Shown one piece after another: positions 6,399-28,600 of a DNA stretch of 56,073 nucleotides (position 1 is its first letter; every line of letters begins with the position of its first letter). The notes beneath the pieces are model-generated. The model worked only from the letters and a program-made list of their open reading frames with translations. It had not been told where the DNA came from and did no database searches. The DNA is from Defluviimonas salinarum. Its GTDB lineage: Bacteria > Pseudomonadota > Alphaproteobacteria > Rhodobacterales > Rhodobacteraceae. The stretch spans positions 1 through 56,073 of the forward strand of contig NZ_JAPDOG010000025.1 of NCBI RefSeq assembly GCF_026013545.1. The letters run 5' to 3'. The position numbers and the translations under genes were made by a program.

Positions 6399-7304
6399 AT
6401 GCTGACCGTCGCCGCACTCTACCAGTTCACCGCCTTCCCCGACCCGGCCGCGCTGCGCGCGCCGCTTCTCGCCCTTTGCGAAGAGCACGGGGTAAAGGGC
6501 TCGCTCCTCCTCGCGCGCGAGGGGATCAACGGCACCATCGCGGGTTCGCGCGAGGGGATCGACGCGGTCCTCGCCCATATCCGCGCCCTGCCCGGCTGCG
6601 CCAGTCTCGACTGGAAGGAAAGCCCGGCCGGGGAGATGCCGTTCGGGCGGATGAAGGTGCGGCTCAAGCGCGAGATCGTGACGATGGGCGAGCCGGAGGT
6701 CGATCCGACCGCCGGCACCGGGCGCTATGTGGCGCCGGAGGGCTGGAACGCGCTGATTTCGGCCGAGGATGTCGTGGTGATCGACACCCGCAACGATTAC
6801 GAGGTGGCGATCGGCACGTTCGAGGGCGCGGTCGATCCCGGCACGAAGAGTTTCCGCGAGTTTCCCGGCTGGTGGCGCGACAATGCGGCGCGTTTCGCCG
6901 GCAAGCGTGTCGCGATGTTCTGCACCGGCGGCATTCGCTGCGAGAAATCGACCAACTTCCTGATCCGCGAGGGAGTGGAGGAGGTCTTCCACCTCAAGGG
7001 CGGGATCCTGAAATACCTCGAGGAGGTGCCCGAGGCCGAGAGCCTCTGGCACGGCGCCTGCTTCGTCTTCGACCAGCGCGTCAGCGTCGGGCACGGGCTG
7101 GTCCCCGGCGGGCACGGCATGTGCCACGCCTGCCGCCGGCCGCTCACCGGGGAGGCCGAGCGCCATCCCGATTACGAGGAAGGCGTCTCCTGCCCGGCCT
7201 GCATCGACGAGTATTCGCCCGAGCAGCGCGCCCGGTTCCGCGAACGCCAGCGCCAGGTCGCGCTGGCCGAGGACCGCGGCGAGCGGCATCTGGGGCCGCG
7301 CTAG
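6399..7304 (+). CDS. trhO: tRNA uridine(34) hydroxylase, rhodanese-like
   Basis: TrhO (YceA) hydroxylates U34 of certain tRNAs to ho5U using oxygen. The 301-aa protein has an N-terminal acylphosphatase-like domain (residues 1-100, [12 protein letters not shown]), then a rhodanese domain with the loop [14 protein letters not shown], where Cys175 is the loop cysteine. A Cys-rich tail follows ([10 protein letters not shown]...[11 protein letters not shown]) that looks like a small zinc site, as in other family members. It precedes the convergent EPS polymerase gene by 7 bp and appears to be an independent housekeeping gene. Confidence 0.93.
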
Positions 7305-7311
7305 GTCCGGT

Positions 7312-8847
7312 TCAACGGCCGGGGCGCTTTGGCTTGGCGGTCTGGCTCTCGGGACCGGATTCAGGCTCGAAACGCGTGTATCGGCTGGTCTGGCGCGCAA
7401 CTTGGCCCGGCGGTGCCGGCGCCTCTTCGGTCGATGCCGTCCGGAGGGATGGATCCTCGGGCGTCCCGCGAGCGCGGCTGGCTTCGATCTCGCGTGCCCA
7501 GACGGTGCGGGGCGGCGGCCCTTTAGCGGAAACGTCATCCGCTCCCTGCGTGATCGCCTCTTCCGGGATGGTCGCGATCCACAACCCCGCGCCCATGAGA
7601 AAGAAGACGAAGGAATAGAGCGAAGTCCAGATATGGACCGTGGTCAGGGTGAAGCTGAGGCCGACGAAGGTGATCATCCAGGCCAACCGCAGGTCCGCCA
7701 GCGCGGAGCCCGGTTCGAGCCGTCGCCGCCCGACCCGGAAGATCGCATCGAGGTAACCCAGCATGATCAGCACGAATCCGGGGATCCCGTAGCGCACCGC
7801 GATCACCAGCCAGAAGTTGTCCATCGTCCCGCTGCGCATATAGGCCGGGCGCACCCAGTAGTTGAAGCCGAGGCCGAAGATCGGATTGTTCCAGACGTTG
7901 AACATGCCCCAGTCGAAGATGACGAGTCGGTAATAGGCGTTGTGCGCCGAAAAGGTCGCGTAGCTCATGAACACCCGGAGCGGCGACCGGTTGGAGGCGA
8001 GATCGACGGCGACATACATCAGCGCAAAGAGCAGGCCGAGCAGCAGCCAGCGTCCGCGGACCCGGCGCAGGACGATGCTCCATCCGATCAGCATCGCCTG
8101 CAGAACCACCGACAGGACCGCGCCGCTCGACACCGAAAACACGACGCAGATGCCGACGCCGACGCTGCGCCACAGGCGCCCTCCAAGGTCGATCACGCTG
8201 CGCAGCCCGACGAAGGTCAGCGCGAAGACCGAGGCGCAGAAGAGGCCGTAGTGGATCGGGTGGGCGAAGAAGACCTGGGCGCGGAACAGCCCGAGGCGCG
8301 GGTAGCGGTTGACATCCTCGACCGCGTCGAGGCCGAGCGCGCGCACAATCTGGATCGGCACCGAGCGGTCGGTCTGCGTTTCCACGAAGGCCAGCGGCAG
8401 CGACAGCAGGACCAACAGCAGGAGCACCCGGATCAGCGCGATGAACGTGCCCGGCGTGCGGATGTAGGCGCGCGCGATCGCGTAGCCGCCGAGGAACTCG
8501 ATCGCTGTCGAGCCGGTGGCTTCGGTCGCCGTCCAAGGGCTCGTGATACGGAGCGCGATCGCCATCCAGATCACGTGCAGGACGAAGATCACGTCGACCG
8601 GAAGCACCTTGCCGTAGCTGCCCCTGAACAGATTGACGAGCAACGGCAGCGTGGTGAAAAGCAAGAGGAGCCGCAGGGGCGAGAGCTTGAGCGGCCCCAG
8701 GTCCACGGTGAAGGGCGTGATCAGCAGGAGCAGGTAGACCCAGACGAGAAGCGGAAGCCGGGGAACCGCCATCCGCCACCCTGCGTCGCGGGCGGAAGTG
8801 GCGGAACTGCGCGCGCTCCGCGCGCCTGTCGTTTCCGCAACCGTCAC
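7312..8847 (-). CDS. O-antigen ligase/polymerase-like membrane protein (Wzy_C type)
   Basis: This 511-aa polytopic protein has about ten to twelve hydrophobic segments, beginning LPLLVWVYLLLLITPF, and a large periplasmic stretch between about residues 300 and 370 containing NAYYRLVIFDWGMFNVWNNPIFGLGFNYW. That stretch resembles the catalytic loop of WaaL/Wzy proteins. The C-terminal 90 residues are hydrophilic and probably cytoplasmic. In this EPS locus it most likely polymerises the flipped repeat unit. GTG at 8847 is preceded by GAGGG on the minus strand. Wzy and WaaL cannot be told apart by sequence alone; the Wzx, Wza and Wzc-like neighbours favour Wzy. Confidence 0.82.
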   Translation of the reverse strand: MTVAETTGARSARSSATSARDAGWRMAVPRLPLLVWVYLLLLITPFTVDLGPLKLSPLRLLLLFTTLPLLVNLFRGSYGKVLPVDVIFVLHVIWMAIALRITSPWTATEATGSTAIEFLGGYAIARAYIRTPGTFIALIRVLLLLVLLSLPLAFVETQTDRSVPIQIVRALGLDAVEDVNRYPRLGLFRAQVFFAHPIHYGLFCASVFALTFVGLRSVIDLGGRLWRSVGVGICVVFSVSSGAVLSVVLQAMLIGWSIVLRRVRGRWLLLGLLFALMYVAVDLASNRSPLRVFMSYATFSAHNAYYRLVIFDWGMFNVWNNPIFGLGFNYWVRPAYMRSGTMDNFWLVIAVRYGIPGFVLIMLGYLDAIFRVGRRRLEPGSALADLRLAWMITFVGLSFTLTTVHIWTSLYSFVFFLMGAGLWIATIPEEAITQGADDVSAKGPPPRTVWAREIEASRARGTPEDPSLRTASTEEAPAPPGQVARQTSRYTRFEPESGPESQTAKPKRPGR

Positions 8848-27418: not shown

Positions 27419-27685
27419 GGTTCCGGTCTTAGGTGGGCGCCCGACCCGTGTCCATGCGTCGGCGCGAAGGGATCCCGCCAGCCGATCTTGAACGCCGGCG
27501 CCGGCCTTGCCAAGATCACTGCCTTGTCCGAGCGGAGATGATACGCGTGGTATCGACACCAACGGAAGCACGAGCCCCACGTCCCGGTGCGGCACGCGTC
27601 GGCAGGCCGGGCGCGTGAAGCTCGAACCTCTCCTCGACGAACCGCTCTTCTTCATCGATCATCTCGGCGGCGAGGGGGCGATCTG

Positions 27686-28333
27686 GTGATCGCCTTCTCC
27701 TTGATCGGCCACGATCCGGCGCGCCGGCCCTCTCCCGAATTCGTGGCGACCGCCATTGGCCGCGGCACCGGGGCCTCACCCCGACGGGCGCTGTTCGTCA
27801 TGGACGAGAGCCGCAGTTGGGGCAACGATCCCGGTTTCGCCCCGGTGCTGCGGCGCGCTCTGGATCGCGTGGCGGCGCGGGCACCGGTCACACAGATCGC
27901 CACCACAGGCCAGTCGATGGGCGCCTTCTCGGCGCTCGTTGCGGCCCGGACCCTGCCGGTGGACGTGGTGGTCGACTTCTCTCCGCAATGGTCGGTGATG
28001 CCAGGCGTGGTCCCTGGCGAAGACCGCTGGGCGCGCTGGACCGCGCGCCTGTCCCGGATCGACTGGCCGACCGCGCCACTTCCCGCAGCCGGCGGCGATC
28101 GGACCTGCCTCTTCCACGGCGCGGTCGACGATCTGCCGCATGCGAGGCACTTTCCCTGCCAGACCGGGACCGACCAGTTGCTCTTTCCCGGTCTCGGGCA
28201 TTTCGACCTCGTGCCGCACCTGAAGGTGCGCGGCGTGCTCTCGGGCGTGATGGAGGCTGCGCTCGCCGGGGATCGCCAACGTATCCTGCGGCAGCGCTTT
28301 GTCGATGCTCAGGATCGGCGGGATCTCGGGTAG
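27686..28333 (+). CDS. alpha/beta-hydrolase-like protein, probably frameshifted at its 5' end
   Basis: The 215-aa frame starts at GTG 27686 after GAGGGGG and contains a nucleophile-elbow-like GQSMGAFSALVAA, an acidic loop VVDFSPQWSVM, and GLGHFDLVPHL, which could give the catalytic His. It would fit an alpha/beta-hydrolase missing its first strands. A plausible missing N-terminus (KLEPLLDEPLFFIDHLGGEG) lies just upstream in another frame from GTG 27615 and stops at 27687-27689. One extra G in the G-run at about 27673-27678 would fuse the two into one frame reading ...GGEGGDLVIAFSLIGH. Either a real frameshift mutation, a sequencing error in the homopolymer, or two overlapping genes is possible. 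Confidence 0.6.
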   Translation: MIAFSLIGHDPARRPSPEFVATAIGRGTGASPRRALFVMDESRSWGNDPGFAPVLRRALDRVAARAPVTQIATTGQSMGAFSALVAARTLPVDVVVDFSPQWSVMPGVVPGEDRWARWTARLSRIDWPTAPLPAAGGDRTCLFHGAVDDLPHARHFPCQTGTDQLLFPGLGHFDLVPHLKVRGVLSGVMEAALAGDRQRILRQRFVDAQDRRDLG

Positions 28334-28372
28334 CGGCGACAGGCGCGTCGCGCCCCAGGCAGCGATACGGAA

Positions 28373-28399
28373 AGGGCCGTTCCGATTAGGAACGGCCCT
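28373..28399 (-). terminator. strong intrinsic terminator, 11-bp perfect stem
   Basis: On the minus strand AGGGCCGTTCC, loop TAATC and GGAACGGCCCT pair perfectly, followed by TTTCCG (the U-tract shared with the stem base). On the plus strand no T-run follows, so it is oriented for the structured RNA at 28373-28565. It could still also stop plus-strand transcripts from the hydrolase-like gene. Confidence 0.75.
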
Positions 28400-28479
28400 C
28401 CGAGATCTACGGAGATGGGCCAGTTAGGGTGTCGAAGATCGACCGGCCCAGTCAGGGTTCTTAACCCTAGGGTTTGCCC

Positions 28480-28536
28480 TCAGGCCACGGCCCCCCTGAC
28501 TGTCCCGACACCTCTCTCCAATATCACTCTCGACAC
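28480..28536 (-). CDS. possible 18-aa leader peptide or small ORF behind an extreme Shine-Dalgarno
   Basis: GTG at 28536-28534 opens a frame of 18 codons (MSRVILERGVGTVRGAVA) ending in TGA at 28482-28480. GGAGG lies 7 nt upstream, the optimal distance, within a 17-nt perfect match to the 16S rRNA 3' end. Its codons overlap the stems of the structured RNA, so translation would change folding. The peptide has no run of one amino acid that would mark a classical amino-acid attenuator. Whether it is translated is unknown. Confidence 0.35.
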   Translation of the reverse strand: MSRVILERGVGTVRGAVA

Positions 28537-28570
28537 TGGATCACCTCCTTTCGCTGCGTTGCCGTTAACA

Positions 28571-28600
28571 GTAGCGTGCCACAGATTTGGTGTTTGTCAA
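28571..28600 (-). promoter_or_regulatory. candidate promoter for the structured RNA
   Basis: TTGACA, a consensus -35 box, reads on the minus strand at 28600 to 28595, seven bases past the yhhQ stop codon. A clear -10 hexamer is lacking; ACGCTA at 17-bp spacing or TACTGT at 21-bp are the nearest. The local AT-richness (28580-28625) supports a promoter. Confidence 0.45.

Follow-up and report, generated by a model that had tools for sequence, protein, structure and literature searches.

A diverged relative of the CC2171 RNAs in Rhodobacteraceae: a possible very small mRNA whose ribosome-binding site matches the free 16S rRNA tail

On the minus strand of Defluviimonas salinarum contig NZ_JAPDOG010000025.1, within the 56,073-nt stretch of DNA analysed here (the window), lies an RNA locus that raises a simple question, i.e., is this a leader, a small regulatory RNA or a gene in its own right, and why should it carry such a long match to the 3' end of 16S rRNA? 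A first-pass annotation, made from the letters alone, had drawn attention to it. The features on which the following depends are:

28595-28600, minus strand: -35 box TTGACA, from the sequence
28572-28577, minus strand: candidate -10 box ACGCTA, separated from TTGACA by a 17-nt spacer
28536-28552, minus strand: 17-nt match to the 16S rRNA 3' end, GAAAGGAGGTGATCCAG, from the sequence
28538-28552, minus strand: extended Shine-Dalgarno (SD) sequence GAAAGGAGGTGATCC, complement of the single-stranded 16S 3' tail
28480-28536, minus strand: frame of 18 codons with GTG start and TGA stop, from the sequence
28517-28540, minus strand: P1, a start-codon hairpin of UCCAGUGU (28533-28540) with AUAUUGGA (28517-28524), from pairing counts
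28449-28502, minus strand: P3, pairing CAGUCAGGG (28494-28502) with CCCUGACUG (28449-28457), its loop containing the stop codon, from covariation counts
28411-28417, minus strand: internal anti-SD CAUCUCC, whose partner is the SD bases GGAGGUG at 28542-28548, from pairing counts and folding
28371-28401, minus strand: terminator hairpin of 13 pairs, including two G-U pairs at its base, with TTT at the foot of the 3' arm, from sequence and folding

The TTGACA box that had been placed ahead of the 16S complement is present, and many relatives that were inspected have TTGACA-like boxes at a comparable position; a simple promoter scan of the window returned no promoter above its rule at the RNA. 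Between the -35 and the presumed -10 box there is a CACAAAATCTGTG-like inverted repeat (28578-28594, minus strand), seen also in many Rhodobacteraceae copies, which could be a regulator site. At the other end, the stem said to terminate the unit does exist as a hairpin, but only three T follow its GC stem and it misses the terminator-scan rule; of the 78 family copies, 75 have a script-detected hairpin followed by T. The remark that no protein gene follows on this strand for almost 1 kb agrees with our reading, as no recognised gene occurs for about 0.95 kb after the terminator.

A standard Rfam scan of the window found nothing at gathering score. A laxer search of 1 kb matched RF01867 (CC2171, a Caulobacter sRNA) over model positions 1-159 at 37.6 bits (E 3.6e-6), under the curated gathering score of 75 bits, so the RNA, for which a check against known RNAs had been proposed, is partly catalogued already. 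The same model matched 80 of 100 genomes of the same family (own genome included; none above gathering score), 85 of 385 genomes of the class (13 above it) and 55 of 299 of the phylum, all 55 labelled as the same family or class. Conservation extends beyond close strains, another check that had been proposed. Among the 20 family genomes without a model match, 14 have arfB, and in eight of these a copy of the RNA is recognisable by eye upstream of that gene; a pattern search added two copies not beside arfB (L255, L256), bringing the RNA to 90 of 100 family genomes (80 by model and ten by eye). Four genomes (G111, G376, G369, G342) have two or three model matches each; among the second matches, L214 contains a frame of 18 codons and L208 is without an SD. 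In one genome the spacer between yhhQ and arfB (L244) retains a terminator without visible SD or frame, an apparent natural loss of the RNA.

By sequence comparison, then, the window RNA is a diverged relative of CC2171 and, by score, no formal member. The two have in common the SD block GAAAGGAGGUGAUCCAGUGUC, a similar length and a 3' terminator hairpin, and matches were confined to the class in the phylum sample. They differ in that copies from other orders form a UCAUUG/CAAUGG helix in which the start region pairs with bases immediately 5' of the terminator (30 of 81 copies, those without a script-called terminator, were left out of this display); this helix is not clearly supported in Rhodobacteraceae, where a 3' anti-SD takes the place of the start-region helix. 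The Rhodobacteraceae candidate for such a helix, CGAGA/UCUCG, has 74.7% of its cells paired against 5-60% in slid registers and 74.8% in shuffles, and its both-side changes are not in excess; likewise, no covariation supports a pseudoknot or long helix joining the P1 loop to the sequence just ahead of the terminator in this family. The RF01867 alignment as displayed also carries no marked frame. A transcript, MH_s33, has been mapped in Mesorhizobium huakuii (Table 1 of PMC5596092). In the accessible portions of the open-licence literature naming CC2171 or its accession we found no function for it, and no title or abstract there fitted an sRNA complementary to the 16S tail like this one.

Comparisons within the family use 78 copies, nearly one per genus, and the copy counts ignore kinship. 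The number is 78 and not 80 since two model hits (L173, L184), with a one-base deletion in the SD extension, escaped the script; both have 18 codons and a stop. Class-wide comparisons use 39 copies, from 40 regions hand-picked among the matches listed (39 from the class search and one from the phylum search) after L208 was dropped; their yhhQ and arfB status lies outside the comparison. A further 119 stretches (titles for 80) were chosen by an exact 21-mer and are therefore uninformative on conservation of that 21-mer.

The 16S 3' end was readable in none of the 21 genomes in which it was sought, so the alphaproteobacterial 16S end was taken as reference and then matched in plasmid records of Rhodobacteraceae (e.g. 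Cereibacter, Rhodobacter, Ruegeria, Sulfitobacter), with 100% identity over 59 nt. The 17-nt complement described by the first-pass annotation is the sole site in the window within three mismatches, where 0.13 would be expected by chance, and in the 5.0 Mb assembly there is a single occurrence of its first 15 bases; only about 15 nt of it is conserved, however, the class-wide form being GAAAGGAGGTG[A/G]TCC (39 copies). The core AAGGAGGTG is found in 78/78 family and 39/39 class-wide copies; the family script demanded it, and the two model hits that the script missed carry it too, whereas the diverged family copy L243 reads AACAGGAGGTG at the SD. Position 11 of the SD is A or G, either of which pairs with U of 16S, in 70 of 78 family copies and in all 39 class-wide, and is C, unpaired with 16S, in the remaining eight family copies; it is followed by an invariant T and then mostly by C, C. 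Because the class-wide bases vary at the end of the match (the base preceding the start codon is A in 24, G in eight, T in four and C in three), its last two bases are incidental, and what is conserved is the stretch complementary to the single-stranded 16S tail. Allowing G-U pairs, at least 14 contiguous pairs with the tail are available in 39/39 class-wide copies and at least 16 in 70/78 family copies. At -33.0 kcal/mol the predicted duplex is more stable than that of a simple AAGGAGG leader of our own design (-11.3), which bears out the statement that the match exceeds an ordinary SD, and pairing between SD and 16S tail presumably takes place.

The frame with which this site is aligned is itself conserved in its outline. 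The GTG that was said to open 18 codons does so in the window, and in the family the triplet at this fixed position is GTG in 70 copies, ATG in seven and TTG in one. In 72 of 78 copies the frame first meets a stop at codon 19 (TGA 36, TAG 30, TAA 6), the other six frames having 20-31 codons, and TGG is never seen at codon 19, where about 15 of 72 would be expected if the last two bases were independently A or G. Twelve diverged or late-found family copies have exactly 18 codons in nine cases and 12, 20 and 23 in the others; in the 12-codon copy (L246) an anti-SD was sought and none found. Class-wide, the start is GTG in 19, ATG in 18 and TTG in two of 39 copies, and frames run to 14-35 codons in 38, with one lacking a stop in the 50 codons translated. 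Codon content is another matter: synonymous against non-synonymous single-base codon changes number 115/293 in frame and 94/283 and 79/260 out of frame, the final codons are free to vary among family copies, and peptides from different lineages have little in common past an initial [VM]S, so that, judged from the copies compared, the peptide sequence itself is not conserved. Start and stop are kept while codons drift, which argues for selection on the act of translation and not on the peptide, and we regard translation of the mini-frame, with start and stop under selection, as strongly indicated. Counting against this, the portion of a Caulobacter ribosome-profiling study consulted describes intergenic ncRNAs in general as untranslated, CC2171 going unmentioned in that portion (PMC4117421).

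The same ribosome-binding region is predicted to be masked by the RNA's own later sequence. In Rhodobacteraceae, RNAalifold and the individual folds of most of 15 examples pair the SD with CACCTCC or CATCTCC just 5' of the terminator. Each of the seven pairs is retained in 69-77 of 77 copies, and the common variants on the anti-SD side (C/T and A/G) preserve G-U or U-G pairing; an eighth pair is available in no more than 29 of the 77, with a matching G on the anti-SD side in five of the eight copies with C at position 11 against one of the 69 others. In total 89.1% of cells are paired (column shuffles: mean 87.8, maximum 88.6), with 11 both-side changes against a shuffle maximum of 9. For P1, 91.5% of cells are paired compared with 40-53% in slid registers and 90.5% in shuffles, and its both-side changes number five against 4-9 in slid registers. 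The percentages for both helices barely exceed those of column shuffles because one side is nearly invariant, and the support for P1 is kept complementarity and not covariation because shuffles and slid registers do equally well. P3, whose pairing of CAGTCAGGG with CCCTGACTG had been noted correctly and whose 5' arm sits inside the frame, has 64 both-side changes, where 300 shuffles reached 46 at most, and 68.4% of its cells are paired; its register is ambiguous, a slide of +1 giving 73.2% and 69 changes. The mutually exclusive stems proposed earlier are thus only partly upheld: pairings of the ribosome-binding region do exclude each other, but the named switch, in which GTGTCGA and GGTGTCG compete for CGACAC, is real in the window and not conserved, an exact 6-nt downstream partner occurring in only two and three of 78 copies (the window in both).

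Masking was compared between lineages by folding and by counting motifs, with 74 of the 78 family copies (those with yhhQ or arfB) representing Rhodobacteraceae; SD shuffle controls took the first 40 copies per group (13 for the Bradyrhizobium type) with three shuffles each, and folding of the SD left out seven outlying or doubtful copies (L126, L159, L185, L188, L199, L057, L125). In the 74 copies the SD core has a median unpaired probability of 0.02, compared with 0.30 once all sequence downstream of the start codon is shuffled; 63 of the 74 contain the anti-SD 7-mer (6.3 expected). Elsewhere the 7-mer is near chance class-wide (6/39, 4.4 expected) and reaches 24/83 (12.4 expected) in the set without yhhQ or arfB, for which L126, L159, L185, L188 and L199 were left out of the motif counts. 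That set is rich in CTGGA[TC], a partial copy of the 16S end, which occurs in 49 of 83 copies (3.5 expected), as well as in 9/39 class-wide (1.6 expected) and in 1/78 Rhodobacteraceae copies (3.2 expected). In Bradyrhizobium-type copies it is a stretch inside the frame that masks the SD, with the partner at +40 to +59 in 12 of 13, and in the examples folded this stretch is GTCACCTC. A duplex of SD with the rest of the RNA is stabler than in the copy's own shuffles in 71/74 Rhodobacteraceae, 33/39 class-wide copies and 69/83 without yhhQ or arfB, while in 68 copies of other orders the folded SD is as exposed as with shuffled tails (median 0.25 vs 0.25). Masking is therefore firmly predicted by these models in Rhodobacteraceae and Bradyrhizobium-type copies, and is a tendency in the remaining lineages. 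An antiterminator formed from the anti-SD stretch was also sought in 75 copies and was absent at equilibrium.

The usual gene order in Rhodobacteraceae is yhhQ, RNA, arfB. The product of yhhQ is a transporter of queuosine precursors (TIGR00697, 91.9 bits), and that of arfB is a hydrolase for ribosome rescue (NF006718, 185.6 bits). On the same strand, beyond the called terminator, arfB follows in 61 of 78 family copies, with a median of 55 nt from U-tract to gene and 40 nt or less in 24 copies, the gaps being approximate as they depend on script-called terminators and tblastn-inferred starts; the flank examined is without arfB in 16 of 78. In the window arfB lies at +1134, starting at about 27418, beyond an opposite-strand ORF (27587-28333, plus strand) that has no NCBIfam or Pfam match and contains a GQSMG motif which, we presume, resembles a serine-hydrolase elbow. 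The only tRNA in the window is tRNA-Gln (CTG) at 7257-7331 on the plus strand. Across the wider collection, 88 loci are without yhhQ or arfB, including every 21-mer-selected locus titled as another order, and of 82 downstream neighbours at such loci 42 face the RNA. Context was called by tblastn with the window proteins, and the neighbour counts are rough since ORFs were chosen by GC frame. Because there are loci without arfB, in varied contexts, and many downstream neighbours face the RNA, we take it to be a gene of its own.

Our best explanation, which we would put at about an even chance as a whole, is that the window RNA is independently transcribed as a molecule of about 200 nt, belongs to a Rhodobacteraceae branch related to the CC2171 RNAs, and is an autonomous very small mRNA whose translation is gated by competition between 16S tail and internal anti-SD for the SD, thereby reporting ribosome availability. 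Starting from the homology, the SD and its complement, the conserved start and stop, the SD/anti-SD and P1 complementarity and the covariation of P3 that the alignments show, we infer a kinetic competition with distinct effects of two forms. A 30S subunit would bind through pairing with the free 16S 3' tail and initiate at GTG (ATG or TTG elsewhere), and the 18 codons would be translated up to the conserved stop. In Rhodobacteraceae the SD would be transcribed first and the anti-SD about 130 nt later, so a 30S subunit arriving early on the SD would lead to translation of the frame with P1 and P3 melted, and an RNA that meets no ribosome soon after its synthesis would fold shut, with the anti-SD on the SD and the start codon in a hairpin. 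The state of the RNA, ribosome-engaged or self-masked, would then read out the supply of free, initiation-competent 30S subunits, and possible outputs are stability or decay of the RNA, an anti-SD set free to act in trans, or, where arfB adjoins, read-through into that gene. A ribosome-state sensor, among the roles originally suggested for the locus, is accordingly worded here as our best functional guess.

Four other explanations draw on parts of the same evidence. The suggestion of a leader-peptide RNA holds by position where arfB follows, as in the 61 family copies mentioned above, but not in the window. In its full form the RNA would be the 5' leader of arfB in Rhodobacteraceae, translation of the mini-frame choosing between termination and read-through. 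Besides the same-strand gene past the terminator, this account can point to the 24 approximate gaps of at most 40 nt, which leave scant space for a separate promoter, to the order yhhQ-RNA-arfB recurring in seven of eight diverged copies, and to pairing of the terminator's 5' arm with upstream RNA (median probability 0.52-0.61) before the 3' arm is made. That pre-pairing, however, hardly depends on state, and the terminator itself has a median probability of 1.00 in the full, stop-masked and start-masked RNA alike (75 copies; singles as low as 0.00-0.06). This comparison, made by equilibrium folding, disfavours an attenuator of the classical kind, while a kinetic one may still operate. The window's opposite-strand ORF before arfB and the 16 flanks without arfB also tell against a leader, as does the absence of arfB beside the RNA at any locus of a named other order (loci L032-L111). 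A further count points the same way: in the genomes that the model did not match, six of the 14 arfB loci have no RNA upstream, and in two of those six genomes the RNA lies elsewhere. We judge an arfB attenuator unlikely.

We consider it just as unlikely that the RNA is a non-coding sponge for the 16S tail, occupying the anti-SD of 30S subunits, lowering SD-dependent initiation and favouring leaderless or SD-less mRNAs, with the frame incidental. The complement to the free tail, the cataloguing of CC2171 as an sRNA and the mapped transcript MH_s33 listed for M. huakuii (PMC5596092) would all suit it, but a sponge has no need for A/G/TTG at a fixed place or for a stop at codon 19 in three spellings. 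Somewhat less probable again is a trans-acting sRNA in which an anti-SD seed (the CCCCACCTCC region), freed once a ribosome takes the SD, blocks other mRNAs. Here Rhodobacteraceae copies retain the anti-SD stretch well, together with its CTAACCGG/CTAACTGG lead, and the Caulobacter SisA-D sRNAs use a 10-mer with an anti-SD signature, according to the part of PMC12559287 consulted; yet class-wide the 7-mer is near chance and in the other set it is only about twice its expected count, as given above. A gene for a functional microprotein would account for the conserved frame, but synonymous change shows no clear surplus relative to the other frames, the final codons vary freely and the peptides of different lineages share little beyond their first two residues, which makes it very improbable.

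For the very small mRNA that we favour, partial parallels exist in the sections of published reports available to us. The Sinorhizobium meliloti duf1127-1 leader, proposed to sense ribosome availability and translation efficiency, includes a short ORF upstream, and C-rich codons are the predicted pairing partner of that ORF's ribosome-binding site. It acts, though, on a gene downstream of it and without an intrinsic terminator (Rho is suggested), and its upstream ORF begins with ATG (PMC12218461); the likeness drawn here is one of proposed mechanism. In Staphylococcus aureus the SD-anti-SD helix extends beyond the canonical one, as mRNA bases past the SD pair with the 16S tail; there the solved complex has two extra pairs on an ordinary mRNA (PMC13009471), whereas here a single RNA dedicated to it matches the whole tail. 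Pos19 of Rhodobacter sphaeroides, likewise a Rhodobacteraceae species, is an sRNA of about 220 nt termed a small coding RNA, but it is a stress RNA of the RpoE regulon and is likened here by description and not by sequence (PMC5036791). Similarly, rnTrpL/peTrpL of S. meliloti is an alphaproteobacterial small RNA with a translated 14-codon frame, differing in that it is leaderless and a trp attenuator with a downstream gene (PMC10117765).

If the reading is right, the CC2171 group, filed as sRNA, would be recast as very small mRNAs with an SD matching the free 16S tail, conserved start and stop and a peptide free to vary, and with a self-made anti-SD in at least two lineages. Were it also true that the state of the RNA reports free 30S subunits, alphaproteobacteria would have a dedicated gauge of ribosome availability, and in Rhodobacteraceae this putative gauge mostly adjoins a gene for ribosome rescue. 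A bolder version, to which we attach only a tentative, minority likelihood, is that the gauge is class-wide, opened only by 30S subunits and locked by the RNA's own 16S mimic when these are scarce, the peptide being a by-product and the state of the RNA the signal, with wiring to arfB in Rhodobacteraceae; the mimic later in the same RNA does differ by lineage, being CACCTCC, CTGGATC or GTCACCTC. Within the reach of our literature searches, what is new is the evidence of translation, an SD that matches the free 16S tail and varies there by wobble only, an anti-SD made by the RNA itself and the positional link to arfB.

A last observation concerns a small hairpin with a CAGC-like loop (GAGGCAGCCCUC), which in copies from Rhodobacteraceae such as L002 and L004 comes after the stop codon. 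Its counterpart in three other copies (L233, L237, L239) is GAGCAGCC, encoding the peptide EQP, and the hairpin may be kept across distant lineages, whether inside or outside the frame.
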